NCBI GenBank assembly: GCA_020852515.1
Contig: JADZAS010000021.1
Location: forward strand, 1 to 64,000
Direction: 5' to 3'
Origin: Phycisphaerales bacterium
GTDB lineage: Bacteria > Planctomycetota > Phycisphaerae > Phycisphaerales > UBA5793
Length of the DNA stretch: 64,000 nt
In this document: piece after piece, positions 4,428 through 41,121 of the stretch
How positions within the stretch are numbered: the stretch's first letter is position 1
Layout: each line of letters begins with the position of its first letter
Made by a program: the position numbers and the translations under genes
Notes under the pieces: generated by a model
Told to the model about the DNA's origin: nothing
Databases searched by the model: none
The model's input: the letters and a program-made list of their open reading frames with translations, nothing else

Positions 4428-5592
4428 GGGACACCTCCCACAGGCGCAGGCAGCGCACGCCGACGACGCGCTGCTCTTCAGGCTTGTGCGTGATATCAGA
4501 CGAATTGGGGGCGGTGACGTTGAAGGTCATCGTCTTCTGCCGTCCCTTGCCGTCGTGAAGGAACTTGAGCGAGAACGTCGCCTGCGTCACCCGCGTCCCT
4601 TCGGCGGGGATGTTCCTGATGTGACGTTCGATCTTCCGGTAGATGTCGTTCGGCGCCGCCTTGGCGTCCGCCTTGACTTCGATCCAGCCGCCGCTGCCGC
4701 GAGGCGAGAAGCGCAGTCGTGTGATCCGAGCCTCTTCGACGAGATCAGCGGGGTCCGTCGGAAGCGCGAAGTTCGGATTGAGCAGGTGATCGAGGTGGTA
4801 CGTCGGGCGGATGGGCTCGGCCGGATCGACCTCCTCATTGAGAACGGCGCGGCAGAACGCGACCTGGAGCGGTCCCCACACGCGCTGGCCGCCCTGCGCG
4901 AACAGTTCCATCGAACCTTCATCGCGGTTGTAGACCATCACGACTTCGAACGCGAACCGGTCGGACCGGACCGTGGGCTCGTCACTGTCCTCGTCGAACA
5001 CCAGGTGCCGGTCCGGGTAGTCGTCGAGGTACGCGAAGAAGTAGTCGGCGTTGCCCGCTCGCACGTAGTGCTCGACTTTGCACTGTCGGCCGCGAAGTTG
5101 GAGCGGACCGTAGAATGCGGTGAGCGCCGCGGCCAGCGCCTCTCGCACCGCGTCGTCAACCTTGAGTTCGATCTGCGGCAGCCCGTTGCGCTTGATCCAG
5201 TACCGGCCGGTGGAGAGAGCATCGGCCCGGGCGAAGACCGCCGCCCGTTCGAACGCCTCGGGCATGTTGAGGAAGACCCACATGGCCTTGTCGTGCCGGC
5301 TCACCTGCGCGCGGTACTCCTCGACGCGCTCGGGCCGCCAGAGAATCTCCTCGGCGAGAACCGCCAGGCCGCGGTGGTCGGCGAGTTCATTGATGTCGCG
5401 CATGATGAGTTTGATCTCCTGCTGGTTGGCGTGCGGCAGCGCGAGCCACGCCTGGAAAACAGGCTCGATCTTGTGCTCCGTGAGTTCACCCCACGGCACG
5501 TTGATGAGTTCGCCTCGTCGGGTGAAGAACTCGCGGAGCAGGGGGTTGGCGATGTGCTTGAGCACCTTGCGGGGGTCGAATGACTTGGCCAT
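4414..5592 (-). CDS. Uncharacterised 392-residue protein of the element
   Basis: I do not recognise the family. The N-terminus (MAKSFDPRKVLKHIANPLL) is helical; the middle has many aromatic and acidic residues (YFFAYLDDYPDRHLVFDEDS) and GGQRVWGPLQVAFCRAVLNE. No nuclease, ATPase or membrane motif is visible. An AAAGGACC ribosome site precedes the ATG. The perfect palindrome at 5608-5622 lies just upstream and shares its half-site with the XRE promoter, suggesting control by the XRE/ImmA switch. It is translated in step with the next gene (14-bp overlap). A candidate for an undescribed element or defence function, but nothing shows this directly. Confidence 0.6.
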   Translation of the reverse strand: MAKSFDPRKVLKHIANPLLREFFTRRGELINVPWGELTEHKIEPVFQAWLALPHANQQEIKLIMRDINELADHRGLAVLAEEILWRPERVEEYRAQVSRHDKAMWVFLNMPEAFERAAVFARADALSTGRYWIKRNGLPQIELKVDDAVREALAAALTAFYGPLQLRGRQCKVEHYVRAGNADYFFAYLDDYPDRHLVFDEDSDEPTVRSDRFAFEVVMVYNRDEGSMELFAQGGQRVWGPLQVAFCRAVLNEEVDPAEPIRPTYHLDHLLNPNFALPTDPADLVEEARITRLRFSPRGSGGWIEVKADAKAAPNDIYRKIERHIRNIPAEGTRVTQATFSLKFLHDGKGRQKTMTFNVTAPNSSDITHKPEEQRVVGVRCLRLWEVSRDAE

Positions 5593-5607
5593 GACGAGAG
5601 GTCCTTT

Positions 5608-5622
5608 CTGTCCCGTGGACAG
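5608..5622. promoter_or_regulatory. Perfect palindrome CTGTCCCGTGGACAG, candidate operator
   Basis: Two 6-bp arms (CTGTCC/GGACAG) flank a 3-bp centre, 16 bp upstream of the start of the 392-residue gene. The same TGTCC/GGACA half-sites, spaced differently, bracket the XRE promoter at 6779-6810. The shared half-site makes it a plausible repressor operator. Confidence 0.4.
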
Positions 5623-5658
5623 TAAACGAAACGGGCAAATAGAAAAGGGCGCGTGCCC

Positions 5659-6366
5659 TCATCCGAAGAGCCCGGGTTGGTACTCCTTAACAAGCAGTTC
5701 CAGTGCTTCGAGTCGGATTCGCATCGCCTGCGCCGATGCGGCGAAATCGTCGGCGAGCGGGCGGCAGAACCGTTCGAATGCGATCTGTTGCTCGAGTTCT
5801 GACGAGGTGGAAGCGTTCAGACCCAGGTCCGCCAGCGAAACCGGGTCGTCGTTTCCTCTCCATTGACGCCACGCGATTCGCAGCAGGTCACGCGGCATGA
5901 GCAGGCAGCCGGCGAAGTGGTTGGCCTGCCACTCCTCCGGCGCCGTGTCGCCGTCGCGGCAAACAAACGCCGGTTCGCCGTTCGCGTTGAAAAACATCGC
6001 CTGGGCCGGATCGCGGCGGAGGTGCTCGCGATGCAACCGCCAGTGGCCCACTTCGTGCGCGATCGTGAAGTTGTAGCGACCGAGCATTTCAGGATGCAGG
6101 ACGGGATCGAGCGACGAATCCACGCGAATCGCTCCATCGCCGAACCAGATGGCGCCGAGCACGTCGTGGCCGCCGAATCGCTTGCGCAGATCTTCGACCT
6201 GAAACGGCAGTCGGAGGTGGCACTCCACGAGATCTTCGAGCGGGATCGGGACAGATACCTTGTGCCCCTTCTCGCTCCATTCGCGGAGCAGAAGTTCGGC
6301 CTCGCTCTCGATCTGACGTTCGTGCAGGTACGGGACTCTGAACTGGTTCGTGGAGACTCGACTCAC
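5659..6366 (-). CDS. ImmA/IrrE-family zinc metallopeptidase
   Basis: Encodes 235 residues from the GTG at 6366, chosen because it overlaps the stop of the XRE gene (GTGA); longer readings run through the XRE gene. The zinc motif HEVGH is at residues 104-108, and EEWQANHFAGCLLMP (from ~144) supplies the expected downstream glutamate ligand. In mobile elements such proteases cleave a cognate XRE/CI-type repressor after DNA damage or other signals (ImmA/ImmR of ICEBs1 is the model). Here the coupled upstream gene is exactly such a repressor, so it probably serves as the induction switch of this island. Confidence 0.85.
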   Translation of the reverse strand: MSRVSTNQFRVPYLHERQIESEAELLLREWSEKGHKVSVPIPLEDLVECHLRLPFQVEDLRKRFGGHDVLGAIWFGDGAIRVDSSLDPVLHPEMLGRYNFTIAHEVGHWRLHREHLRRDPAQAMFFNANGEPAFVCRDGDTAPEEWQANHFAGCLLMPRDLLRIAWRQWRGNDDPVSLADLGLNASTSSELEQQIAFERFCRPLADDFAASAQAMRIRLEALELLVKEYQPGLFG

Positions 6367-6731
6367 GGTGCATCGTCCTCCTGGCTCTGGCGCTTCGCGT
6401 CCTCGATGAGGCGCTTGAGTTTCTCGGCCGACAAACCCCTCGCGGCCCGGAGCAGGGCCGGCATCAGGTCGGGTCGATCGAGAATGATCTCCTTTGACTC
6501 TTCGGACACTCGCCCGGCGAGCGCGATCCACTGTTCGGGGTCGGCACCGAGCAGTTCAGCCATCTTCTTCACCCGATCCGCCGCTGGTGGATAGTCGGCA
6601 TTCCCCGTCTCCACGAGCGAGAGGTAGGTTGGGCTGACGCCGATCATCTCCGCGAACCGGCGCAGGGAGTATCCCTTCTCGAGCCGCTTCTCGCGTAGCA
6701 TGGTGCCGAAGTGGGATGGGGAAGAGGTCAT
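6363..6731 (-). CDS. XRE-family transcriptional repressor
   Basis: Encodes 122 residues. The helix-turn-helix spans ~residues 8-60 (LREKRLEKGYSLRRFAEMIG, VSPTYLSLVETG), and a C-terminal helical tail follows. It overlaps the ImmA/IrrE gene by GTGA, making a repressor-protease pair. A good sigma-70 promoter lies just upstream, bracketed by inverted half-sites, which suggests autoregulation. It is divergent from the CRISPR-Cas operon, with 186 bp between the two start codons, so it could also affect cas expression. Confidence 0.85.
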   Translation of the reverse strand: MTSSPSHFGTMLREKRLEKGYSLRRFAEMIGVSPTYLSLVETGNADYPPAADRVKKMAELLGADPEQWIALAGRVSEESKEIILDRPDLMPALLRAARGLSAEKLKRLIEDAKRQSQEDDAP

Positions 6732-6917: not shown

Positions 6918-8363
6918 ATGAGCCCGACCGATCCCTCCGCAACCTTCAACCTGATCGAGGCGCGTTGGATTCCCGTCCTTCGGACCAACGGCCAGTTCGA
7001 GCGGGTGGGTATTCGCATGGCACTGATGGAGGCGGGATCGATTCGCCAGATTGCGGCGAGCAACCCGATGGACAACGTGTCGCTGCTGCGGTTCCTGCTT
7101 GCGGTGCTGCTGTGGTGCCGGCCGGGGCTCGATGAGGCGGAGCGGCGCGGGCTGGACGGGGCGACGAGAATCCCCGAGGGCTGGCTGAAAAAACTCGTGG
7201 GGCAGCAGCCGGAGCCGGCATTCAATCTGCTCGGCGACGGAGTTCGGTTTTACCAGGATTCATCGCTGAAGGGCAAGGAACCTCGGCCGATCGCAGATCT
7301 ACTCGGGGAGTTTCCGGGCGCGGACTCTGTCAACCACATGCGTCATGTCGTGCATGACGGTTCCTACGGCTTCTGTCCAGCGTGTTGTGCGCTCGGGATT
7401 CTGCGACTGTCCGTATGGGCGCCCGCGAATCGCTTCTACCCGGCCTCGGTCAACCCAAGTTCTGCCGCATATGCGGTCGTAGAGGGAAAGGACCTTCTTA
7501 CGACCATGATCGTTAACCTACCGCATGACGCGACTCATTCCGGTGAGGCGCCGTGGCTAACGGACCAACCCCCAGATCCCCAGGGCGCTATAGCCTGCTT
7601 GGCGTGGCGACCTCGCAGGCTGTGGCTGAATGTCGCGGACGGGCGAGGAGCATGCGCCAACTGTGGCCAACCCGGAGTGCTGGTCGAGAGTCTGTGCAAC
7701 GACGGGGGCTGGCCTACGCCGAAGACGGAGGGCCGGTTGAAGAAGTTCTGGGAACTCGATCCTCACCTTCTGATTGACGGCGAACCGGCATCGCTGCCGG
7801 GCTTAGGGGCGAGCGCTGCGGTTCACGCTTCGCGATTCTGGCGCGATGCCGTCCGATTGAGCGCTGGCCTGAAGGGCCGAGTCGTAGCGGTCGGTCCCGT
7901 CGTCAACAAGTTCGTCTTTCAGGACGCTGCCCGTGTCGTTTTCCCACGCCTGCGGGCACAGTCGCGCGTTGAATTCAGTCAGAAAGTCAACGAGAAACTG
8001 AGGGGAGTGCTCCGGAAGGCAACACCGAACGCCGACCGCCAACATCCGCAGATGCACGCCGCTGTGACCATGCTGACTCCAGATGCCGAAGCGCGGGTCT
8101 TTGCAGTGCTGCAGGCGCCCGACCCCGGCGCGGACGAAGGATTACTGTTGTTGCACAATGTGTATGGTCCTCTTGTCGAGCGAGTAGTGTCCTCGACTGC
8201 TCGCGGTTCGCCGCTTCGGCGGCGTGAAGCCGTCAGTCGGGCACTGGCCGCTCTTGACCGAGTGCTGCGTACTGCCGCCGCGCGCCCGGCGGGGCAGAAA
8301 AAGTCCGCACCCAACGCGGCCAAGCCGAATCGCTCGCGAAGGAAGAAGGGGGCTGCGTCGTGA
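6918..8363 (+). CDS. cas8e: Type I-E Cascade large subunit Cas8e (Cse1/CasA)
   Basis: Encodes 481 residues. The N-terminus (FNLIEARWIPVLRTNG) is the hallmark of Cse1, which recognises the PAM and helps unwind target DNA at the crRNA 5' end. Two CxxC pairs (C153/C156 and C246/C249) can form the zinc site seen in several Cas8e proteins. An AGGAG ribosome site (6904-6908) precedes the ATG. It is the first gene of the cas operon; cas3, which usually stands just upstream, is absent, and the next genes upstream face away. The stop overlaps cse2 by GTGA. In ordinary I-E systems Cas8e recruits Cas3; here its partner is probably the HNH domain on Cas5e. Confidence 0.93.
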   Translation: MSPTDPSATFNLIEARWIPVLRTNGQFERVGIRMALMEAGSIRQIAASNPMDNVSLLRFLLAVLLWCRPGLDEAERRGLDGATRIPEGWLKKLVGQQPEPAFNLLGDGVRFYQDSSLKGKEPRPIADLLGEFPGADSVNHMRHVVHDGSYGFCPACCALGILRLSVWAPANRFYPASVNPSSAAYAVVEGKDLLTTMIVNLPHDATHSGEAPWLTDQPPDPQGAIACLAWRPRRLWLNVADGRGACANCGQPGVLVESLCNDGGWPTPKTEGRLKKFWELDPHLLIDGEPASLPGLGASAAVHASRFWRDAVRLSAGLKGRVVAVGPVVNKFVFQDAARVVFPRLRAQSRVEFSQKVNEKLRGVLRKATPNADRQHPQMHAAVTMLTPDAEARVFAVLQAPDPGADEGLLLLHNVYGPLVERVVSSTARGSPLRRREAVSRALAALDRVLRTAAARPAGQKKSAPNAAKPNRSRRKKGAAS

Positions 8364-8938
8364 GTCAGGCGACCGCCTTCATCCAGCGTCTCGAAGGGCT
8401 CAAGGCGGGTGAGCGGTCGCGCCTGCGCTCGCTGGCCGGGATGCCGCTCGACGCGCGGCTTGACGGCTTTGACCTGTTCACGGGCCTGTGGTGGCCGCTG
8501 CGCGCGACAAACAAGGCCGCTCCCCGCCGCGAGACGAGCTGGTTGGTCGCCAAACTCCACGGCGCGTTCGGCTCAGCCGTGCCGCACTTCGTGCCGACAG
8601 GCGAGAGGCAAGGGCGGGCGCTCCCTGCGATCCTCGGCGTCTGCGAGCCGTACGACCCGCCAGACTGCAAGGCGCACGAGCGATTCCGGACGCGCTTCGA
8701 TGCCCTGCTCTGCTCGCCTCTGCCCGCGATCGAGCCTCATCTTCGTTGGGCCTTGGATGTGGTCGCCAAGGCGTGCGACGGGCGCGTGCCATACGCGAAT
8801 GGCGTCAAGGGCATCGATTGGGCGAGGTTGCTCGACGACCTTTCCATCTGGGACCGCGGCGAGGCGCACGCACGGCGGCGCGACGTGCGGGATGAATGGG
8901 CCGAGGCGTACCTAGACCGGGTCCGGAACGTTGGCTGA
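8360..8938 (+). CDS. cse2: Type I-E Cascade small subunit Cse2 (CasB/Cas11e)
   Basis: Encodes 192 residues from a GTG that overlaps the cas8e stop. The all-helical small-subunit pattern is visible (GERSRLRSLAGMPLDARLDG near the N-terminus; DWARLLDDLSIWD near the C-terminus, the usual LL..L..w motif). Cse2 forms the belly dimer of Cascade, stabilising the displaced strand. Length is typical. The gene ends 20 bp before cas7e, inside which the cas7e ribosome site lies. Confidence 0.9.
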   Translation: MSQATAFIQRLEGLKAGERSRLRSLAGMPLDARLDGFDLFTGLWWPLRATNKAAPRRETSWLVAKLHGAFGSAVPHFVPTGERQGRALPAILGVCEPYDPPDCKAHERFRTRFDALLCSPLPAIEPHLRWALDVVAKACDGRVPYANGVKGIDWARLLDDLSIWDRGEAHARRRDVRDEWAEAYLDRVRNVG

Positions 8939-8958
8939 TCGACCCCAAGGAGGATGAC

Positions 8959-10131
8959 ATGCTGATCGAAATCCACATGATCCAGAACCACAGCCCCGCG
9001 AACCTCAACCGCGACGACCTCGGCGCGCCCAAGACCTGCCTCTTCGGCGGCGTCACGCGGGCGCGCATCTCCAGCCAGTGCCTCAAGCGCAGCATTCGGC
9101 GGAGCGATCAGTTCGCCGCGGCGCTGGAGCGCGATGGCGGCGTGCGGACGCGCCGATTGATCGAGCAGATCGCCCAAGCCGCGGCAGGGAATGGCAATCA
9201 GCCCGCCGATAAGCACCTCAAGGCCATCCGCAAGGTCTTCGATGATGGCGGCGTCCCCTTGGACAAGGGCGACGGGTACAGATTTGACATTCTCTTCTTC
9301 CTGCCTCAATCCGCCATCAACGAGATGGGCCTTGCCGTGAGGGCCGGAAACGGTGATCTGGGCGAGCAGTTCGCCGGGATCATTGCCAAGTTTGTCAAAA
9401 CGCCGGACATCGCCCTCTGCGGCCGCATGACGGAGTTTGATGCCAAGGGTCCGTTCGCTGATCTGAAGGGCAGGTTTGCCGTCGAGGCCGCGCTCTCCTC
9501 GGCGCATGCCATCTCCACACACGAGGTCGTGAACGAGGTCGATTACTTCACGGCGGCCGACGACATCCCGGGTTCTGACGCCGGCGCTGCGCACGTCAAC
9601 GAATCCGTGTTCAACTCCGCCTGCTTCTACAAGCATTTCTGCATCGACTGGGACCAGCTGCTCACGAACCTCGGCGGAGACGCTGACCTCGCCACGCTGA
9701 CGGTCAGGTGCTTCCTCGAAGCCGCAGCCTCGGCCGTGCCGTCGGGCAAGCAGCACGCCTACGCGGCTTTCAACCACCCCGACGGCATCCTCGTCGAGGT
9801 GAAGGCCGATTCACGCACGCGCGTCAGTTATGCGAATGCCTTCGCGAGGCCCGTCGTCGCGAGCGCGCAGCAGGGCCTGATCGAGGGAAGCATCGCGCGC
9901 CTCGGACAGCATGTCCACGAGATGGTGGAGGGCTACGGCATCGAAGCCGATCGGTTCTGGTTCTCGCCAGGCCGGCGGCACGCCCTGATGTGGGTCGATC
10001 GCAACGAGCAGCGCGAAGCGCACAAGGAGCAGCCGGTCGTGGGCGGTCAGCAGTTTGTGGGCAGGCTCGATGACCTCGTGCAGGGCGTCATGGGCGTGGT
10101 CTCGCGGGCAACGGCAGGAGCCGCGTCGTGA
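8959..10131 (+). CDS. cas7e: Type I-E Cascade backbone subunit Cas7e (Cse4/CasC)
   Basis: Encodes 390 residues. The start is the ATG at 8959, supported by AAGGAGG at 8947-8953 and by the family N-terminus (IEIHMIQNHSPANLNRDDLG); a longer in-frame reading begins inside cse2. The segment GGVTRARISSQCLKRSIRRS is the diagnostic Cas7e RNA-binding region. Six copies normally line the crRNA spacer. Late segments (AYAAFNHPDGILVEVK, SYANAFARPV) also fit. The stop overlaps cas5e by GTGA. Confidence 0.93.
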   Translation: MLIEIHMIQNHSPANLNRDDLGAPKTCLFGGVTRARISSQCLKRSIRRSDQFAAALERDGGVRTRRLIEQIAQAAAGNGNQPADKHLKAIRKVFDDGGVPLDKGDGYRFDILFFLPQSAINEMGLAVRAGNGDLGEQFAGIIAKFVKTPDIALCGRMTEFDAKGPFADLKGRFAVEAALSSAHAISTHEVVNEVDYFTAADDIPGSDAGAAHVNESVFNSACFYKHFCIDWDQLLTNLGGDADLATLTVRCFLEAAASAVPSGKQHAYAAFNHPDGILVEVKADSRTRVSYANAFARPVVASAQQGLIEGSIARLGQHVHEMVEGYGIEADRFWFSPGRRHALMWVDRNEQREAHKEQPVVGGQQFVGRLDDLVQGVMGVVSRATAGAAS

Positions 10132-11252
10132 CCGCGGCAGGAACGAACACGCTCTTCCTGCGCCTCGAAGGCCCGCTCCAGTCATGGGGCGACACGTCCA
10201 AGTTCGTCATCCGGCGGAGCATGGAGGCGCCGACAAAGTCCGGCGTGTTGGGGCTGGTCTGCTGCGCCATGGGCCTATTGCGCGCCAAAGCGCGGGAGCG
10301 GCTTCCGGAACTCAACACGCTGGCCATGGGCGTGCGGATCGACCGCCCCGGCACGCGCTGGTGGGATTATCACACCGTCGGGGCCGACGTCGGCATGACG
10401 ACGGCCGGAGGCGGCATCAAGACCGGCGCCCAGGGCACGCTCATCACGCGCCGCGAGTACCTCGCCGACGCGAGTTTCCTCGTCGCGCTCCGGGGCGAGG
10501 CGGAACTGATCCAGCGCGTCGCCGGTGCGCTGGCCGCGCCGGTCTGGCCCGTGTTCCTGGGCCGAAAGTCATGCCCGCCAGGGCTTCCAGTGCTAGCGAC
10601 TCCGCGCGAGGGCGATGGCTGGCGCAACCCTTCGACGCATGCCTCGCTCGCCGATGCGCTGGCTTCGGTGTCGTGGTCGTCACGCTGCGAGGGCGATCCC
10701 GTGCCCAGGGAGGTTGGGACGCTCATCGAGTGGTGCGGCGACGGAGAGGAGGACATCGCGCCCGAGGATGCCGAAGTCTGGTACGACTCGCCCGTTTCCT
10801 TCGAGCCGCCCGTCCACGAGCCGCGACTTGTGATGCGGGGCACGGTCGCCGTGACGGCCGGGAAGCCGATGCACGACCGCCCCCCGGGACCGGCGCGTCC
10901 TCGCGCCGACTACACCAACGCCGAGTACCGGGCGCGCCGCGCCGCACGGCTCGAATCTGACCACGGCCTGTGCGTCTTCTGCAAGTCGTCCGCCACGACC
11001 GTTCAGCACGTCACATACCGCCGCGCCGGAGGCGACGAAGCGCACGACGACCTGCGCGCCCTCTGCCGCCTCTGCCACGACGCGGTGACCATGATCGAGT
11101 ACGGACATGGAATGGGCCTCGACCGCATCGACCCCTGTGATAAGCGCTGGCGCGACGAGATCCTCCGCACGCGTTCGGAGATTGTGCGATTCCGTTCGCT
11201 GGAGATGCGCCGCCGCCACCTTGCCTCGCAGGCGCCGGAGGAGGTCGAGTGA
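10128..11252 (+). CDS. cas5e-HNH: Cas5e fused to a C-terminal HNH endonuclease domain (Cas5-HNH)
   Basis: Encodes 374 residues, about 130-150 more than a normal Cas5e. Residues 1-245 are Cas5e: LFLRLEGPLQSWG and PTKSGVLGLVCCAMG are its signature, binding the crRNA 5' handle. A Pro/Arg-rich linker (246-262) leads to an HNH domain: C282xxC285, H294 in VQHVTYRRAGG, D307/D308 in the asparagine position (HDDL), then C313xxC316-H317. The four cysteines are the structural zinc set; H294 and H317 fit the ββα-metal active site. A basic helical tail (330-374) follows. The reading frame is continuous, starts GTGA-coupled to cas7e and ends GTGA-coupled to cas6e. With no cas3 in the locus, the HNH domain is the likely effector nuclease of Cascade. 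Confidence 0.93.
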   Translation: MTAAGTNTLFLRLEGPLQSWGDTSKFVIRRSMEAPTKSGVLGLVCCAMGLLRAKARERLPELNTLAMGVRIDRPGTRWWDYHTVGADVGMTTAGGGIKTGAQGTLITRREYLADASFLVALRGEAELIQRVAGALAAPVWPVFLGRKSCPPGLPVLATPREGDGWRNPSTHASLADALASVSWSSRCEGDPVPREVGTLIEWCGDGEEDIAPEDAEVWYDSPVSFEPPVHEPRLVMRGTVAVTAGKPMHDRPPGPARPRADYTNAEYRARRAARLESDHGLCVFCKSSATTVQHVTYRRAGGDEAHDDLRALCRLCHDAVTMIEYGHGMGLDRIDPCDKRWRDEILRTRSEIVRFRSLEMRRRHLASQAPEEVE

Positions 11253-11986
11253 GCATGTTCATCTCCTGTCTCTTGGTTGACACCGGCGCCAACGTGGACC
11301 GCCCGCGCCCGGGTCGGCTCTGGCTCAGGAACGTGTACCGGGTGCATCAGCGGCTGTGCATGGGGTTCCCGACTGCGGTGAGGTTCGGCGCTGACGCGGA
11401 TTTCCTACTTCCGTTCAAGCCCGACGATTTCGGCCCCGGGCACGTCCGCGTGCCGAGAACGCGGCAGGCGGGATTCCTGTTCCGAGTCGATCCTCTCCAG
11501 CGCGGCCGCGCGGTGATCCTCGTGCAGTCGGCTGATGAGCCGGATTGGGGCTACGCGTTCCGCAACGCGGGACACCTGCTCGCCGCCGACCCCGCGGTGC
11601 GGGCGTGGGACCCGTCGTTCGCGGCGGGAGAGCGATGGCGCTTCCGCCTCCGCGCAAACGCGGTCCGCCGCATCGCGCCGGTGGAGCCGGGCCGCGACGG
11701 ACCACGCGTGCCGGTGCCTCCCACGGAGGAGCGCCTGCGGGAGTGGCTGGTGCGCCGCGCATCTCGCGCCGGCTTCGGTTTGGAGGCGCTCGAAGCGATG
11801 GTCCCGGGCTACGTCTACATGAGCAAGTCGGTGATGCGCGGCTCGGGATTGAGGTTGCGTTCGGTATTGTACGAGGGGACGTTGCGAATCGTGGATCCGG
11901 GCGCTCTCTCGAGCGCTCTCGCCTCCGGAATCGGCCCCGCCAAAGCCTTCGGCTTCGGCCTGCTGTCGATCGCTCCAGTCCGATAG
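11249..11986 (+). CDS. cas6e: CRISPR pre-crRNA endoribonuclease Cas6e (Cse3/CasE)
   Basis: Encodes 245 residues from the GTG that overlaps the cas5e-HNH stop; an ATG two codons later is an alternative. The segment VYRVHQRLCMGFP holds the catalytic histidine (H33; equivalent to the HQ.L motif of E. coli Cas6e), and the C-terminal glycine-rich loop GIGPAKAFGFGLLSIAP (from 227) is the family signature. It should cleave the repeat hairpin and keep the 3' handle. It is the last gene of the Cascade block; 104 bp then separate it from cas1. Confidence 0.92.
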   Translation: MSMFISCLLVDTGANVDRPRPGRLWLRNVYRVHQRLCMGFPTAVRFGADADFLLPFKPDDFGPGHVRVPRTRQAGFLFRVDPLQRGRAVILVQSADEPDWGYAFRNAGHLLAADPAVRAWDPSFAAGERWRFRLRANAVRRIAPVEPGRDGPRVPVPPTEERLREWLVRRASRAGFGLEALEAMVPGYVYMSKSVMRGSGLRLRSVLYEGTLRIVDPGALSSALASGIGPAKAFGFGLLSIAPVR

Positions 11987-12090
11987 ATCATCAGACCCAC
12001 GAAACTCCCCTCCAAAAGGGGCCGATCTTTGACAAGTGAATACCTTGGCGGTTCGTCGGCACCGGTTTCGCCTGGCAAGGAGCACTCGGC
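11987..12090 (+). other. Intergenic gap between cas6e and cas1
   Basis: The 104 bp include a short CCCC/GGGG hairpin (12007-12021) and a TTGACA box at 12029-12034, but I see no convincing -10 box at the right distance. The adaptation genes may therefore have a separate weak promoter or simply be read through from cas8e. Confidence 0.3.
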
Positions 12091-35246: not shown

Positions 35247-35765
35247 ATGCCGATACCGTTCCCTGCCGCCGCTGAGCCCATCGGCCGTATCGCAACGAGA
35301 ATCATGCCCGACCCCGCTGAAGAATCCGCCTCCCCGACGCTGCTCGAGCAACACCTCGCCGCCTGCGACGACGCCTGCCCGATGTGCGGCTACAACCTCC
35401 ACAACCTGCGCGGCGACAAATGCCCCGAATGCGGCCAGGAACTGACACTCCAGATCGCCCTCGCCGAGCCGCGCATGGCGGCGTTCATCACCGGCCTCGT
35501 CGGCTTGGCCGCGGGCGCCGGCTTCTGCGGCTTCGCGCTGATCATCACGATCATCGAGTCGCTCATGTACGATTACTGGGATTGGGGCGACACGAGCATG
35601 CTCGCCATTGGAGCAGTTGCTTTCACGTTCGTCGTGATCGTCTGGTGTCGCCGATCCGCAAGAATTCGGAGGATGAGTTCATCCAGCCGCTGGAAATTCG
35701 CGGTCGGAGCGTGGCTGCTTCCAATCCTCGCTGTCGCGCTATTTGCCCTGATCGCCTGGTGGTGA
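35247..35765 (+). CDS. Zinc-ribbon membrane protein
   Basis: Encodes 172 residues (or 153 from the ATG at 35304). A double CxxC zinc ribbon (CPMCGYNLHNLRGDKCPECG) is followed by three hydrophobic segments. This arrangement is common in planctomycetes, especially Phycisphaerae, and helps suggest the host group. Function unknown. Confidence 0.75.
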   Translation: MPIPFPAAAEPIGRIATRIMPDPAEESASPTLLEQHLAACDDACPMCGYNLHNLRGDKCPECGQELTLQIALAEPRMAAFITGLVGLAAGAGFCGFALIITIIESLMYDYWDWGDTSMLAIGAVAFTFVVIVWCRRSARIRRMSSSSRWKFAVGAWLLPILAVALFALIAWW

Positions 35766-35985
35766 TGTGCCACATCTAGGGAGGCTGTCATTGGTCGGTG
35801 CCCGCATCGCGCCCTTCCGTGACTCCGCGGCGAGCCTCGCGCCACCATCGCCAACCCATCACCGATGCGGGCGCTCGTCGCCCTCGCGGCCAACGCGGGC
35901 ATTCGCCGTACCTGACCTTGACCGAACAGGACTCGGTCATAGAGTGAACCCCGGATCAGGCGTGCTCAATCACTGGAGGCGGCCC

Positions 35986-36810
35986 GTGGCAATCCCGAAG
36001 CGAGTAACCGAGCGCATCGTAAAGCATCTCAAGCCGTACCAGGCGATCCTCCAGCAGCAGAAGGCAAGAGACGTATCCGAAGCCGACACGGTCACGATCG
36101 TCAAGGACATACTCAGCGACATCTTCGGCTACGACAAGTACGCCGAACTTACGAGCGAGCATTGCGTGCGCGGCACCTACTGCGACCTCGCGGTGAAAGT
36201 CGATGGCAAACTGTGCTTCCTGCTCGAAGTCAAAGCCATCGGGCTGGAACTGCGCGATGCGCACGTGAAGCAGGCCATCGACTACGCGTCGAACCAGGGA
36301 TGCGAGTGGGTTGTGCTGACCAACGGCGTCGAGTGGTGTCTCTACCACGTTCTGTTCCGCAAGCCGATCGACAAGCAGGAAGTCGCCCGCATCGACCTCA
36401 CCGCCGTGAGCGCCAAGAGCGCGAGCGACCTTGAACGGCTGTACCTCCTGACCCGCGAAGGCCTGAGCAAGAGTGCCCTGGCGGAGTACCGCGATCGGAA
36501 GGATGCGACGAGCCGATTCATGCTCGCCGCGATTCTTCTCAACTCGCCGGCGATCATCAGCGAGATCAAACGCAGCATCCGCCGAATCAGCGGCCTCAAC
36601 ATCGAACCCGATCTGATCTCCAAAATGCTTCGCGAGGAAGTGATCAAGCGAGAGACGATCGAAGGCGACCAGGCCGAAAGCGCCGGTCGCCGCGTGCACC
36701 GCGACAAGAATTCGAAGCGGCAGAATTCAAAGCCGACCGCGCCCGAAGGGGCATCGGCTGCGCCCACGCGAGAATCGATAGGGCATGTGGTACCCTCGAT
36801 ACCGGCATAG
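35986..36810 (+). CDS. Type I restriction R-subunit N-terminal-like (HSDR_N) nuclease-domain protein
   Basis: Encodes 274 residues from the GTG at 35986, which has a GGAGG site 7-11 bases upstream. CDLAVKVDGKLCFLLEVKAIG carries D67, E81 and K83, the PD-(D/E)XK set of the HSDR_N family; QAIDYASNQGCEWVVLTNGVEWCLY is the conserved following segment. There is no helicase part and no modification or specificity subunit nearby, so it is a stand-alone protein. The C-terminus is charged and disordered. Possibly a defence or DNA-handling gene. Confidence 0.8.
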   Translation: MAIPKRVTERIVKHLKPYQAILQQQKARDVSEADTVTIVKDILSDIFGYDKYAELTSEHCVRGTYCDLAVKVDGKLCFLLEVKAIGLELRDAHVKQAIDYASNQGCEWVVLTNGVEWCLYHVLFRKPIDKQEVARIDLTAVSAKSASDLERLYLLTREGLSKSALAEYRDRKDATSRFMLAAILLNSPAIISEIKRSIRRISGLNIEPDLISKMLREEVIKRETIEGDQAESAGRRVHRDKNSKRQNSKPTAPEGASAAPTRESIGHVVPSIPA

Positions 36811-36882: not shown

Positions 36883-37218
36883 ATGCTATCTGAAGTTTAC
36901 GTCGTCACTCTGTTCCTTGCCTCGCTTGCGAACTACGATTACTACAAGACTTCGGGCAGCATTGGATTGAGGCCATTCGGCATCCTCGAATTACCGTATG
37001 AACTCGCTGGATTCGGTGCCTGGATTCTGATTGCGCTGCTGTTCGTCGCGGGTTTTTTTGCGCTACCGTGGTGGGTACCGCCTCTGGCTGTCTTTGGGTG
37101 CGCCGGATTCGCTGGCTATGTCTATTGGCGGGTGCCTCTGAGCGCAACGTACGCCATCGTGGGTTTCCCACTGGCGGTCATAGGCGCGATTGCATTCGTG
37201 GCGATTGCTTTTTTTTAG
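36883..37218 (+). CDS. Small membrane protein
   Basis: Encodes 111 residues with three to four hydrophobic spans (GAWILIALLFVAGFFALPWW, AIVGFPLAVIGAIAFVAIAF). No family recognised. Base composition is less GC-rich than the neighbours, which fits acquisition from elsewhere. Confidence 0.5.
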   Translation: MLSEVYVVTLFLASLANYDYYKTSGSIGLRPFGILELPYELAGFGAWILIALLFVAGFFALPWWVPPLAVFGCAGFAGYVYWRVPLSATYAIVGFPLAVIGAIAFVAIAFF

Positions 37219-37336: not shown

Positions 37337-37987
37337 GTGAACGATTACTTCAAAGACAGCATCGAAGTGTATACGATCCCGTGTATCCGTCGGTTGCGCG
37401 ATGAGATTCGACCGGACGAACAAGGACTGCAGGGATGTACCGTCGCGCTTGCACTGGCCACCTTCGCAGTTCTGGACCTCTTTGGGTTCTTGCTCCGCCC
37501 TGATTCAGATGCCGTTAAGACCGAAGCTCGGAAGAACCTTGAGTTTATCTTCACTCGCTGCGAAACTCTGTTTGAGCCGCAACTGGATGAAGCGGTTGCG
37601 GAACTCTTGATTCTGGTGTTCCGACACGGAGTCGTTCATCAGTATTTTGCCAAGAGCGCCGGGCTGGCAAGGGAGGGAAACCGACTTCCGCTGGTCACTC
37701 AGACTACCAACGGCCGACGACAAACCCCGATTCTGAATGTTGATGCGCTGGCAACTTCTACGATCGAATTCTCGGAGAAGGTGAAAAAGCACCTACTCGC
37801 TTCCGGAAACGAAATAGAACTCTCTCGCTTCTGCGGACGGCTTCGATCGCTGCTTCAAGAGGATCGGTGCGCATTACAGCGGTGCATGACATGTGAGTCT
37901 CGACTCCTGATGGTCGATATTCAGCACGCCACCCTCGGTCCCCCGTTGTCACACTCGATGGAACCCGAGCTGCCTCCCATTGGCTAA
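37337..37987 (+). CDS. Hypothetical protein in accessory patch
   Basis: Encodes 216 residues from a GTG. Helical throughout (VALALATFAVLDLFGFLLRP, EKVKKHLLASGNEIELSRF), with no recognised motif. GC content is lower than in the chromosomal neighbours. Its stop codon lies in GGCTAAC, 27 bp before a short hairpin and the first copy of the ~59-bp flanking repeat, so it borders that unit. Confidence 0.5.
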   Translation: MNDYFKDSIEVYTIPCIRRLRDEIRPDEQGLQGCTVALALATFAVLDLFGFLLRPDSDAVKTEARKNLEFIFTRCETLFEPQLDEAVAELLILVFRHGVVHQYFAKSAGLAREGNRLPLVTQTTNGRRQTPILNVDALATSTIEFSEKVKKHLLASGNEIELSRFCGRLRSLLQEDRCALQRCMTCESRLLMVDIQHATLGPPLSHSMEPELPPIG

Positions 37988-38014
37988 CATGAAGCCGGTA
38001 GGTCAGCGCGTCGG

Positions 38015-38073
38015 TCAGGTGGAACCTGACAGTTAGGCGTGTGTCGGAGCCGCGCCCGGCCGCGTGATTTGGC
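38015..38073. repeat. ~59-bp direct repeat, copy A
   Basis: Begins with a small hairpin (TCAGGT...ACCTGA) and continues through GGCGTG.GTCGGAGC.GCGCC.GGCCGCGTGA.TTGGC. It matches 39792-39851 with about six mismatches in the last 43 bases and the same hairpin. The two copies flank the nuclease-like gene pair. Confidence 0.75.
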
Positions 38074-38150
38074 CAGCTCGCCGTCTGACCTTCGACGCCG
38101 CTCGGCACATCCTCGCGTCAGCGGATGGTGATGGCGGGGGACCTCCGCTC

Positions 38151-38855
38151 TTACTCTCCGGACCAGATCCCCTGTATCCGTTGCGCCACACGGTCAATGC
38201 TTTCGAGCGACGAAAGATCGAACAGCGGAACCGGCGCTCCGCTCTTGAGCACGCGGAAACTCACGCGGCGATCCACGGCCTTCTGCCTGCTGCGCGACTT
38301 CTTGACCACCGCTCGCGTTACGGTGGGCTGATCCGGTCGATCAAGATCGAAGGCGGCGATGATCCTGCGAAGCATGTAGCGAGCCAACCAGTCATCGGCC
38401 CGGATGGGATCGTGCTTGGGCCCAACCGTCCAGTCGCCAATCACGGCATACTGCAGATGGGGCTCGAACTTCTCTCTCTTCGGGTCGTGCAACTTCAATT
38501 TTACGGCAAGCAGTCGGCCGCTCAGCTGCACCGGAGTCTTGCCGCCCTTCTTGGGAGTGCTCTCTTCGTCGATCTCTTCCTCCTCGTCATCTTCCATCTC
38601 CTCGTCTTCCTGCGAGAGGTCGTCGATCAGGCTCGGCTCAAAGAGTTGGCCGAAGAAACTCCTGGCAATGGTCCGCGATCCGTCTCGCGACACTTTGGCT
38701 GGAAACCCGCCGATGGCGACAAAGGGCACGGGCTCCGCCTGCAGCGCATCACGAAGCGCCACGTAGAGTCGGCCCACTTCTTTGTACAGGTGATGTACGC
38801 TGCTTATCGTCGAGTGTACAGCAACCGCAAACTCTTCGCGCGTGAGATCAGTCAT
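38151..38855 (-). CDS. Hypothetical partner of the nuclease-like gene
   Basis: Encodes 234 residues. An acidic linker (EDEEMEDDEEEEIDEES) divides an N-terminal helical part from a C-terminal part with conserved-looking basic residues (VVKKSRSRQKAVDRRVSFRV). No family recognised. Its start overlaps the stop of the PD-(D/E)XK gene by 8 bp, so they are one unit. Confidence 0.55.
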   Translation of the reverse strand: MTDLTREEFAVAVHSTISSVHHLYKEVGRLYVALRDALQAEPVPFVAIGGFPAKVSRDGSRTIARSFFGQLFEPSLIDDLSQEDEEMEDDEEEEIDEESTPKKGGKTPVQLSGRLLAVKLKLHDPKREKFEPHLQYAVIGDWTVGPKHDPIRADDWLARYMLRRIIAAFDLDRPDQPTVTRAVVKKSRSRQKAVDRRVSFRVLKSGAPVPLFDLSSLESIDRVAQRIQGIWSGE

Positions 38856-39765
38856 CGCTACTCTTTCTGAATCTGAACTGTGTAAGTTGGCTCATTGATC
38901 GCATCCGCTCGGCGAGTGGCGTCTTCATGAATACACCCAGCGATCGTCGGGATGGCTCGAACTGCCATCCTTTCACAGCCGTCGCACGGCGCGAGCCTTT
39001 AAGAGCATCCCAGCGTTCATTCTGCCCGCTCGCGCCGAGCCTCCATCGCTTCAATGGCCTGCATGCGGTCGCGGTCGTTCGATTCATCGAGTGAATGCCG
39101 CAGTATGCATCGAGACCGGCGTATTCAAGGTAATCCCGCAGCGGCCAAGCCCAATGGCTGCCGCGGTCTTCGATCAAATGCAGCAGACGGTGAAGCCGTT
39201 GCCATGTCAGGATGCGCAGGTCGGCGCGCGGCGGGGCAAGCTTGACCGAGGCGCGGAACTCCCGCATGCACCTTCGCAACCGTCGCTCATCCACAATGTA
39301 GAGGAACCGAAGACGCGCGTTCTGTACGGCCCGTGTCAGCCCTGCCTCGGAAGCCCAGCCGCCGTTGCACAGGTCTTCAATGCTCCTCACCTGCCGGCAG
39401 AGTTGATCTGCCAGCGCGAGCGGGCCTTCGCCGGTCGCGTCCGTTTCCGCCACAGCGTGATCGTGCTTTCCACTGCGATATTTCGCTTCAATCACAACGA
39501 TGTGATTCCCGATGCGCAGAATCAGGTCGGGCTCGGACCACCTGAGGCGCGGCCAGAACCAAGCCTCGGCGGGTTCGGCGGGCGCATCGAGAGCGTCAGT
39601 CGCCTCGCCCGCCGCGGTCCGGGCTTCGCTGAGCCAGTGGGCAAGGATACTTCGCGCGTTCGCAAACAGGAGCGTTCCAAATACAGTCGAAGTCAGCGCA
39701 TCTTCGAGCCGCTGAGGTTCGGGGATGTGCTCCGCCAGTTTGCCTCGGAGAATTGCGTGAAGCAT
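38848..39765 (-). CDS. PD-(D/E)XK nuclease-like protein
   Basis: Encodes 305 residues from the ATG at 39765; longer readings run through the flanking repeat. SEPDLILRIGNHIVVIEAKY holds D80, E93 and K95, a clear PD-(D/E)XK core, and the early helix LEDALTSTVFGTLLF fits the fold's first helix. The rest (ALADQLCRQVRSIEDLCNGG) is helical. Family uncertain; possibly a restriction-type or defence nuclease acting with the coupled 234-residue partner. Confidence 0.65.
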   Translation of the reverse strand: MLHAILRGKLAEHIPEPQRLEDALTSTVFGTLLFANARSILAHWLSEARTAAGEATDALDAPAEPAEAWFWPRLRWSEPDLILRIGNHIVVIEAKYRSGKHDHAVAETDATGEGPLALADQLCRQVRSIEDLCNGGWASEAGLTRAVQNARLRFLYIVDERRLRRCMREFRASVKLAPPRADLRILTWQRLHRLLHLIEDRGSHWAWPLRDYLEYAGLDAYCGIHSMNRTTATACRPLKRWRLGASGQNERWDALKGSRRATAVKGWQFEPSRRSLGVFMKTPLAERMRSMSQLTQFRFRKSSDD

Positions 39766-39791
39766 GGGATCCGGAAAGCCTAGCAGGTGGT

Positions 39792-39851
39792 TCAGGTCCA
39801 GACCTGACACTTGGGCGTGCGTCGGAGCAGCGCCGGGCCGCGTGACTTGGC
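39792..39851. repeat. ~59-bp direct repeat, copy B
   Basis: Same sequence as copy A at 38015-38073, in the same orientation, with hairpin TCAGGT-CCAG-ACCTGA. It lies just upstream of the nuclease-like gene start. Confidence 0.75.
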
Positions 39852-40134: not shown

Positions 40135-41121
40135 ATGTCCACGCACACGTTCATCGCTGACTTTGAGAACTCGCAGTACCTCGACGGCGTCTACTGCATC
40201 TACAACGCCCAGCTGGGTCAGACCAAGGCCGGCAAGCCGTATCTCAAGGCCCTGATCCGCGACAAGAGCGGCCAGATCGCCGCCCGCATGTGGAACATCA
40301 CCGAGCAGCAGTTCAAGTGCCTGCCCACCAACGGCTTTGTCTGGCTCGAAGGCCAGACCCAGCCCTACCAGGGCGAGCGGCAACTCATCGTCATGGACAT
40401 CCGGCCCGTCGAGGTCGCTGCCGAAGACCTGCCCAATCTTCTCCCGGCCACGACCAAAGACGTCGAGAAGATGACCGACGATCTGCTCGCGCTGCTCGAA
40501 TCGCTCAAGCACCCGGCCATCCGCGCCCTGATCAACGAGTACCTCACCGATGAGAAGCTGATGGATTCGTTCCGCGCCTCGCCCGCGGCCGTGTCGATGC
40601 ATCATGCCTATCTCGGCGGGCTGCTTGAGCACACGCTGCAGCTGTGCACGCTGGCGGATCGCATGCTGCCGCTGTATCCCAAACTCAATCGCGACCTCGT
40701 CATCGCCGGGCTGTTCCTGCACGACCTGGCCAAGTGCATGGAACTGTCGTACGAGTACGGCTTCACGTACACGACCGAAGGGCAGCTCGTCGGGCACATC
40801 GTGCTCGGCTCGCTCATGCTCCAGCGCAAGGCCGATGCGGTCAAGGCGCGCGGCGGGCCGGAGCTGCCGCCCGCGGCGCTGCTCGTTCTCCACCACATCA
40901 TCCTCTCGCACCACGGCATCCCCGAGTACGGCGCGGCCAAGGTGCCCTCGACGCCCGAGGCGATTTTCGTCTCGCGCCTCGATGAACTCGACGCCAAGAC
41001 GCAGATGGGCATCGACAACGCGCGGCCGGAGGTGGGGGTGGTCACGGAGGGCGACTCGGATTTCACCGACAAGGTGTGGGCCCTGGACACCCGGCTCTAC
41101 CGCCCCGACCCGCTGGCGTAG
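40135..41121 (+). CDS. YhaM-like 3'-5' exoribonuclease (OB fold + HD domain)
   Basis: Encodes 328 residues. The N-terminal OB fold (LIRDKSGQIAARMWNITEQQ) is followed by an HD phosphohydrolase domain: HHAYLGGLLEHTLQLCTLAD, AGLFLHDLAKCMELSYEYGF and LLVLHHIILSHHG supply the metal-binding His and Asp residues. This is the YhaM layout of Gram-positive RNA/DNA exonucleases; the length agrees. Confidence 0.85.
   Translation: MSTHTFIADFENSQYLDGVYCIYNAQLGQTKAGKPYLKALIRDKSGQIAARMWNITEQQFKCLPTNGFVWLEGQTQPYQGERQLIVMDIRPVEVAAEDLPNLLPATTKDVEKMTDDLLALLESLKHPAIRALINEYLTDEKLMDSFRASPAAVSMHHAYLGGLLEHTLQLCTLADRMLPLYPKLNRDLVIAGLFLHDLAKCMELSYEYGFTYTTEGQLVGHIVLGSLMLQRKADAVKARGGPELPPAALLVLHHIILSHHGIPEYGAAKVPSTPEAIFVSRLDELDAKTQMGIDNARPEVGVVTEGDSDFTDKVWALDTRLYRPDPLA

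Follow-up and report, generated by a model that had tools for sequence, protein, structure and literature searches.

A GTAG-tagged palindromic repeat adjoining variable, often defence-type genes in a genus of Phycisphaerales

REPs are usually regarded as scattered by-products of RAYT transposases. Those of the GTAG-tagged class are described as dispersed, extragenic hairpins of 6-13 bp with a short loop and a terminal GTAG, and are reported from Planctomycetes (PMC3733652). The same source reports them close to gene 3' ends and as a supply of stop codons, and describes an E. coli RAYT that cuts single-stranded REP DNA at its GTAG motif (PMC3733652). An association with RAYT genes is common in this class, not universal. 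Judged from sequence, the repeat family described here (R1) fits a dispersed palindromic repeat of this class in its hairpin, tag, loop and dispersal. At the GTAG end of R1, the adjoining DNA tends to look foreign, is often of defence type and, at a given site, varies from one sister species to another, while the tail side is conserved; this position relative to the neighbouring genes is what is novel about R1. A literature search, limited in depth, found no earlier report of such repeats beside defence genes, nor of PDC-M15/S41.

The analysed window (the whole stretch of 64,000 nt, belonging to genome G000) contains two R1 copies in the same orientation. Copy A (38005..38073, +) consists of AGCGC, a GTCG tag, the hairpin and a conserved tail, and starts 17 nt past the stop codon of a 216-aa gene; copy B (39782..39851, +) consists of AGCAG, a GTGG tag, a hairpin with one pair lost and the tail, with a gap of 16 nt to the start codon assumed for a nuclease gene that reads away from it. 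The original prediction had located these flanking repeats to within a few bases, and segments 38024-38073 and 39802-39851 are 88% identical over 50 nt; the complete alignment covers 70 nt at 81% identity with one gap (E 1e-11 in a search space of 4.7 Mb), a relatedness far beyond chance. The small hairpin that it had described was recovered as GGTCAGGT-GGA-ACCTGAC in copy A, the imperfect palindrome of copy B having a 4-nt loop, and the A-B interval holds, as it had said, only the nuclease gene and its partner (38848-39765 and 38151-38855, both on the minus strand). Matches of the R1 model at 38010-38068 (74.1 bits) and 39787-39846 (62.8 bits) exist by construction, because A and B were among the nine copies used to build the model; by conservation the units start 5 nt before these matches, at 38005 and 39782. 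The next best match in the rest of the window scored 12.2 bits, and an Rfam search of the window returned a tRNA elsewhere as its sole match, with none at the repeats.

Copies of R1 are ~60 nt long, roughly 80-90% alike, and have the architecture AGCnn-GTAG-hairpin-AGTTGGGCGTGTGTYGGAGC. Covariance-model searches found at least 28 copies at E<=0.01, spread over many contigs, in G000 (4.72 Mb; nine model copies included; 150 of 1,635 candidates scored), 13 in G004, 3 in G003, 2 in G001 and none in G002, all of the same genus, these copy numbers being lower bounds since 150 candidates were scored per genome. Among the 26 other relatives (30 searched in all), six had one weak match each. An exact-pattern scan of genome contigs returned two contigs, both from Phycisphaerales bacterium UBA5793, near relatives being possibly excluded from that scan. 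In these searches R1 was thus seen to be strong in this genus only.

Structure and context were studied on 23 copies (the 16 best of the 28 in G000, the 5 best of the 13 in G004, and the two that G001 has); the information profile was made without C13:504535 and C37, and the edge, tag, box and inverted-partner counts were redone on all 23. The hairpin has a 7-bp stem (92.8% of cells paired, covariation not significant) and, in most copies, a loop of 3-4 nt. The GTAG tag is exact in 16/23 copies, A and B being among the variants. The profile rises abruptly at AGCnnGTAG and declines gradually beyond the hairpin, and this sharp GTAG-side edge is found in 19/23 copies as an A at -5 and a G at -4, with no conservation farther out. 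A same-strand gene lies within ~110 nt of the tag in 9/23 copies, and the tail-side neighbour gene is on the strand opposite to R1 in 15/23, mostly at a convergent site. Same-orientation pairs enclosing genes occur in the window and at C21, C19, C14 and C13:384805/385822. Two same-orientation copies at L109 9806-10878 enclose two small minus-strand genes with no assigned family (ORFs 9881-10270 and 10300-10992), in an interval of 59% G+C versus 65% in the flank.

With the GTAG-tagged REPs R1 shares the short-loop hairpin, GTAG at one end, dispersal, nearness to gene 3' ends, the use of TAG as stop and some inverted (head-head) dimers, and its extragenic position likewise belongs to the features of the class (PMC3733652). 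It differs from the description given there (PMC3733652) by its few copies (at least 28), by ~30 nt conserved past the hairpin and a mostly single occurrence, and by a GTAG side that adjoins foreign, exchanging genes; a linked RAYT gene was looked for and not found. The likeness to REPINs, which have RAYT transposases, is confined to a few copies that form two inverted hairpins ~130-200 nt apart: a clear inverted partner was found in 4/23 copies (<=3 edits; 2 more with 6 edits; chance 23/420 shuffles), none within 420 nt of A or B, which do not qualify as REPINs, and no flanking RAYT gene was found. The draft genome G000 has six Y1_Tnp matches, five of them over the cut-off, and R1 is absent within 1.5 kb of all six. 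A perfect hairpin of the GTRG type, sought in their 1.5-kb flanks, was likewise absent. In G002, Y1 matches number four, yet R1 matches at E<=0.01 number zero.

The gene next to copy B encodes a predicted PD-(D/E)XK nuclease of 305 aa (38848..39765, -), whose core residues E21, E78, D80, E93-A94-K95 and Q121 are invariant in 7/7 sequences, and overlaps by 8 nt the gene of a 234-aa partner with an acidic stretch (38151..38855, -). The nuclease had no match in 60/60 relatives searched, nor in Pfam and PDB sequence searches, and the predicted structures of both proteins (mean pLDDT 38) were set aside as too poor. Its N-terminal region partly resembles the A subunit of the PADLOC candidate PDC-M15 (PDC-M15A, E 2.4e-6 over ~97 aa), whereas the partner had no M15 match and just a weak IIG match (0.0072), so that the two-subunit composition of that candidate was not recovered. 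Nuclease homologues were detected in 6/391 other genomes of the phylum (at most 5 candidates scored per genome), one of the six also having a partner match. In the closest case, the distant planctomycete G102, the partner is again adjacent and overlapping, at 30% identity, and there is no strong R1 match (best 14 bits). The pair therefore exists without R1 and is a module of its own, of which R1 is no part; it is probably a defence module, here a candidate one, independent of R1. At the G102 locus (L165, contig C114), the pair (4565-6477) lies directly upstream of genes that by eye are HsdM, HsdS and HsdR-like (7778-12004), and a serine-recombinase-like gene is present at 418-1254, in a region that has the appearance of a defence island in a 12-Mb planctomycete.

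In the window, the nuclease pair is the second of two cargo units lying between a left border gene (35304..35765, +), whose homologues in G004 (72% aa) and G003 (49% aa) occupy the corresponding position, and a right border gene (40135..41121, +), which has an HD domain and an OB-fold below cut-off and is present in 31/31 genomes searched (own included). The first unit comprises a gene with the HSDR_N_2 domain of type I restriction R-protein N-termini (35944..36810, +; 27.6 bits against a cut-off of 25, the scanned ORF beginning at 35767), a 111-aa gene (36883..37218, +), membrane-like by eye and with no Pfam or PADLOC family, and the 216-aa gene without family (37337..37987, +) that ends just before copy A. 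The two cargo stretches have 57% and 61% G+C versus 67-68% in the flanks. Coding scores per aa are low for the 216-aa gene (0.07), the nuclease (0.12) and the partner (0.41) and native-like for the HSDR_N gene (0.63), scores below 0.35 being found in 19% of 52 background genes of the window. These scores come from a gene caller that uses dicodon statistics learned from long ORFs in the DNA analysed, and that misses or mis-starts short foreign genes. Around R1 copies (L009, L010, L103, L107), many small proteins of membrane-like type were noticed that are divergent and carry a zinc-ribbon motif, the product of window gene 35304-35765 being one of them.

At the orthologous locus in G004 (contig C58), the flanks are 89-90% identical to those of the window, except for a stretch of 79% over the left border gene, and the ~4 kb between them are unrelated save for one R1 copy; the nuclease pair is absent and other genes are present. 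The stop codon of the neighbouring gene in G004 lies inside this R1. A gap of 82 nt separates the border genes in G003, where R1 gave no match; in the window the gap is 4,369 nt. The locus thus occurs with no R1 and no cargo (G003), with one R1 and other genes (G004) and with two R1 and two cargo units (G000); at the HD gene of G001 and G002, no R1 match exceeded 11.9 bits in the stretch examined, the G001 contig ending ~1.3 kb past the gene. Copies A, B and the G004 copy have in common a locus-specific tail, GGCCGCGTGRYTTGGC, which suggests that the second copy arose by duplication on the spot.

Seven orthologous loci were compared. In six of them R1 is present in both species and the GTAG-side DNA differs; at C15, C5, C21 and C13 the sharing of R1 is not itself a result, the relative's stretch having been chosen there because it bears R1. 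The window, C14 and C19:18407 loci were found by gene or flank. At C15, a NERD gene and an SLFN-g3 helicase gene (PDC-S41, 4.6e-281) stand against Eco57I methylase, T5orf172 helicase and DUF3800 genes on C59 of G004, with firm alignment on the tail-side flank only. At C5, where both flanks align, a TIR protein (ThsB model, 1.1e-18) is replaced on G004 C20 by a protein whose sole match, to a propeller, stays below threshold. Both flanks also align between C14 and G004 C68, where an 809-aa protein and a 250-aa one, the former without family, end 10-14 nt before R1, the G004 repeat being decayed (15.6 bits). The 809-aa protein (L105 10926-13355, -), which has no Pfam or PADLOC match, shows by eye a nuclease-like N-terminus and a P-loop, its stop lying 10 nt before R1. 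At C21, zinc-ribbon genes stand against FRG (PDC-S15, 2.8e-32) and TIR genes on C1 of G001, only the tail-side flank aligning; the tandem FRG-domain and TIR-domain genes (L117 8005-10018) apparently form a two-gene defence unit that ends 15 nt before R1. At C13:384805, firm alignment with G004 C61 is again tail-side only: past the GTAG end, the 160 nt of G004 up to its contig end are unmatched, and G000 continues with two small genes that belong to no assigned family, followed by a second same-orientation R1. The seventh locus, C19:18407, is conserved on both sides in G004 with no cargo change, the G004 contigs breaking there. An eighth, C19:52238/53579, was kept outside the count, the G004 contig ending at that point.

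Cargo families at the compared loci thus include restriction-modification, TIR, FRG+TIR and SLFN-helicase genes, and several R1 copies adjoin membrane or zinc-ribbon genes without defence match, many cargo genes having no family at all. Ten further cargo genes searched against PADLOC gave one weak match (0.0046); of 10 native genes used as a control, four had matches at E<=0.01 (best 2.2e-10), so that only strong, long matches were relied on.

Exact breakpoints were found at the GTAG end in a few cases. Between C13 and C61, a block of 1,062 nt at 96.4% identity, R1 included, stops 3 nt beyond the GTAG end. C14 of G000 and C20 of G004, which are different loci, have in common a 426-nt unit of R1 and a 60-aa gene at 86% identity, homology beginning at GTAG and, in G000, stopping 2-3 nt short of a second R1; this second R1 supplies a TAG stop, by which the 60-aa gene is shortened. 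Together with the G004 stop codon inside R1, these two cases indicate that the GTAG end is there a physical joint. A polarity was also measured on the copies with genes on both sides (4/23 lacked one side): the GTAG-side neighbour has a coding score below that of the tail-side neighbour in 16/19 copies (p 0.004, the copies being not independent) and, in a hand count by locus with one mixed locus dropped, in 12/14 (p 0.013), with C19a, C14c and C21a of opposite polarity. The partner was used as the neighbour of copy B in this count because the gene caller over-extends the window nuclease.

The reading preferred here, which has in our estimate about an even chance of being right, is that R1 is a REP-class repeat turned recurrent junction for the turnover of foreign, often defence-type genes, A and B resulting from local duplication on stacking. 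R1 would have been seeded by a single-strand transposase of Y1/RAYT type that acts on the hairpin; recombination would afterwards have recurred at the GTAG end of R1, with foreign genes being exchanged or stacked there. The nuclease pair would be one such stacked unit, and A or B the local duplicate that stacking left behind. If this is true, an R1-like family would offer a concrete sequence handle on defence-gene turnover where the sites show no obvious transposon or integron, and unknown defence genes could be found by reading the GTAG side of each copy. The original prediction of a small mobile cassette or duplicated insertion site is supported by the G004 locus, which has a single repeat and lacks the pair, by G003, with neither repeat nor cargo, and by the shared local tail; its suggestion of an integron attC is not. 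A widely scattered repeat unrelated to the gene pair was to count against it, and this is found in part, the repeat being widely scattered and the pair occurring without it in G102. Against the junction stands the fact that copies of ~60 nt, only 80-90% alike, are poor substrates for homologous recombination; the C5/C20 and C21/G001 copies have different tails, so R1 may have arrived there independently, and C19:18407 is a counter-example. Weighing against it too are the choice of four loci for their R1, the copies of opposite polarity, the cargo genes with no defence match or no family, the absence of R1 near the Y1 matches, the scarcity of inverted partners and the non-significant hairpin covariation. 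The main rival, somewhat unlikely in our view, considers R1 as an ordinary REP family inserting after gene stops, with foreign genes entering the same tolerant intergenic sites, neither acting on the other, and A and B as two ordinary insertions. It agrees with the nearness to gene 3' ends and the supply of stop codons reported for REPs (PMC3733652), with other dispersed repeats at the same loci, with the 15/23 opposite-strand tail-side genes, whose mostly convergent arrangement makes a safe site, and with the unchanged cargo of C19:18407. Tolerant sites account poorly for the three different sequences found directly at the GTAG ends of copies that have one locus-specific tail in common (A, B and that of G004), for the C13/C61 block that stops at that end, for the 426-nt unit bounded by R1 ends and for the polarity of coding scores; the exact breakpoints at one end thus speak against this rival, but they rest on few loci and draft genomes.

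Unlikely is a system of active cassettes, in which an enzyme (Y1/RAYT-like or other) would cut AGCnn|GTAG of successive hairpins, excise the R1-to-R1 unit with its gene and insert it at another R1, giving integron-like same-orientation arrays without an integron integrase. The same-orientation pairs around genes at the window, C21, C19, C14 and C13:384805/385822, the sharp GTAG edge and the presence of the 426-nt unit in two species at different loci would be expected of it, and GTAG cleavage in single-stranded REP DNA is reported for an E. coli RAYT (PMC3733652). No R1-linked candidate enzyme gene was found when looked for, G002 combines four Y1 matches with no R1 at E<=0.01, and the locus-specific tails in the window are better explained by recombination on the spot than by an origin elsewhere. 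That R1 would be the working site of such integrase-free exchange, with a single-strand nuclease cutting the GTAG ends of successive hairpins, and these Phycisphaerales swapping cassettes of defence and other accessory genes at several places in the chromosome, is similarly unlikely. True integron cassettes resemble the R1 units in being same-orientation units of a gene and a 3' hairpin site, and their attC boxes follow the consensus RYYYAAC ... GTTRRRY. The two box words invoked by the original prediction are present (GGCTAAC at 37982-37988, GTTAGGC at 38032-38038), but the former does not fit RYYYAAC. Among the 23 copies, RYYYAAC lies within 60 nt upstream in one (G1C1, which carries both words) and GTTRRRY within 60 nt downstream in 11. 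The best TIGR02249 match for an integron integrase scored 78.9 bits against a cut-off of 265 (genome 96.67% complete). The z values of six single-strand folds ranged from 0.01 to -1.98, none of the folds being attC-shaped and the best one (57-nt bottom strand of A, 9/200 shuffles as good) owing its rank to the small hairpin. R1 further differs from integron cassettes by one or two units per locus and by a tail conserved across loci past the would-be crossover, unlike what an attC junction predicts. Despite same-orientation repeats after gene stops and the GTTAGGC of copy A, an attC identity is therefore barely credible. A regulatory role, as dyad operator or as RNA hairpin controlling or stabilising transcripts that end at R1, would suit a palindrome near gene stops and the 9/23 copies with a close same-strand gene; it is very unlikely, given that R1 adjoins unrelated genes at unrelated sites, is absent from G002 at E<=0.01 and has neither an Rfam match at the window repeats nor significant covariation.

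Further repeated features were observed near R1. A second dispersed intergenic repeat (L099 5418-5613, L111 405-565, L117 7041-7205, L103 1-170, L096 5628-5784) often forms the left edge of R1-bordered cargo; it was considered as the other end of an element and rejected, its orientation being inconstant and the window having no copy. The 60-aa gene (MDRDEMFEAAQ...) was seen next to R1 at L105 10487-10672 (-) and L113 10300-10482 (+), with highly similar coding parts. An extended head (GGTCAGYGMGT...) precedes the hairpin in copies A, C19c and C14c (window 37999-38020; L104 9890-9910; L105 4074-4090), and copy A may be a hybrid repeat in which this head is joined to the local tail.
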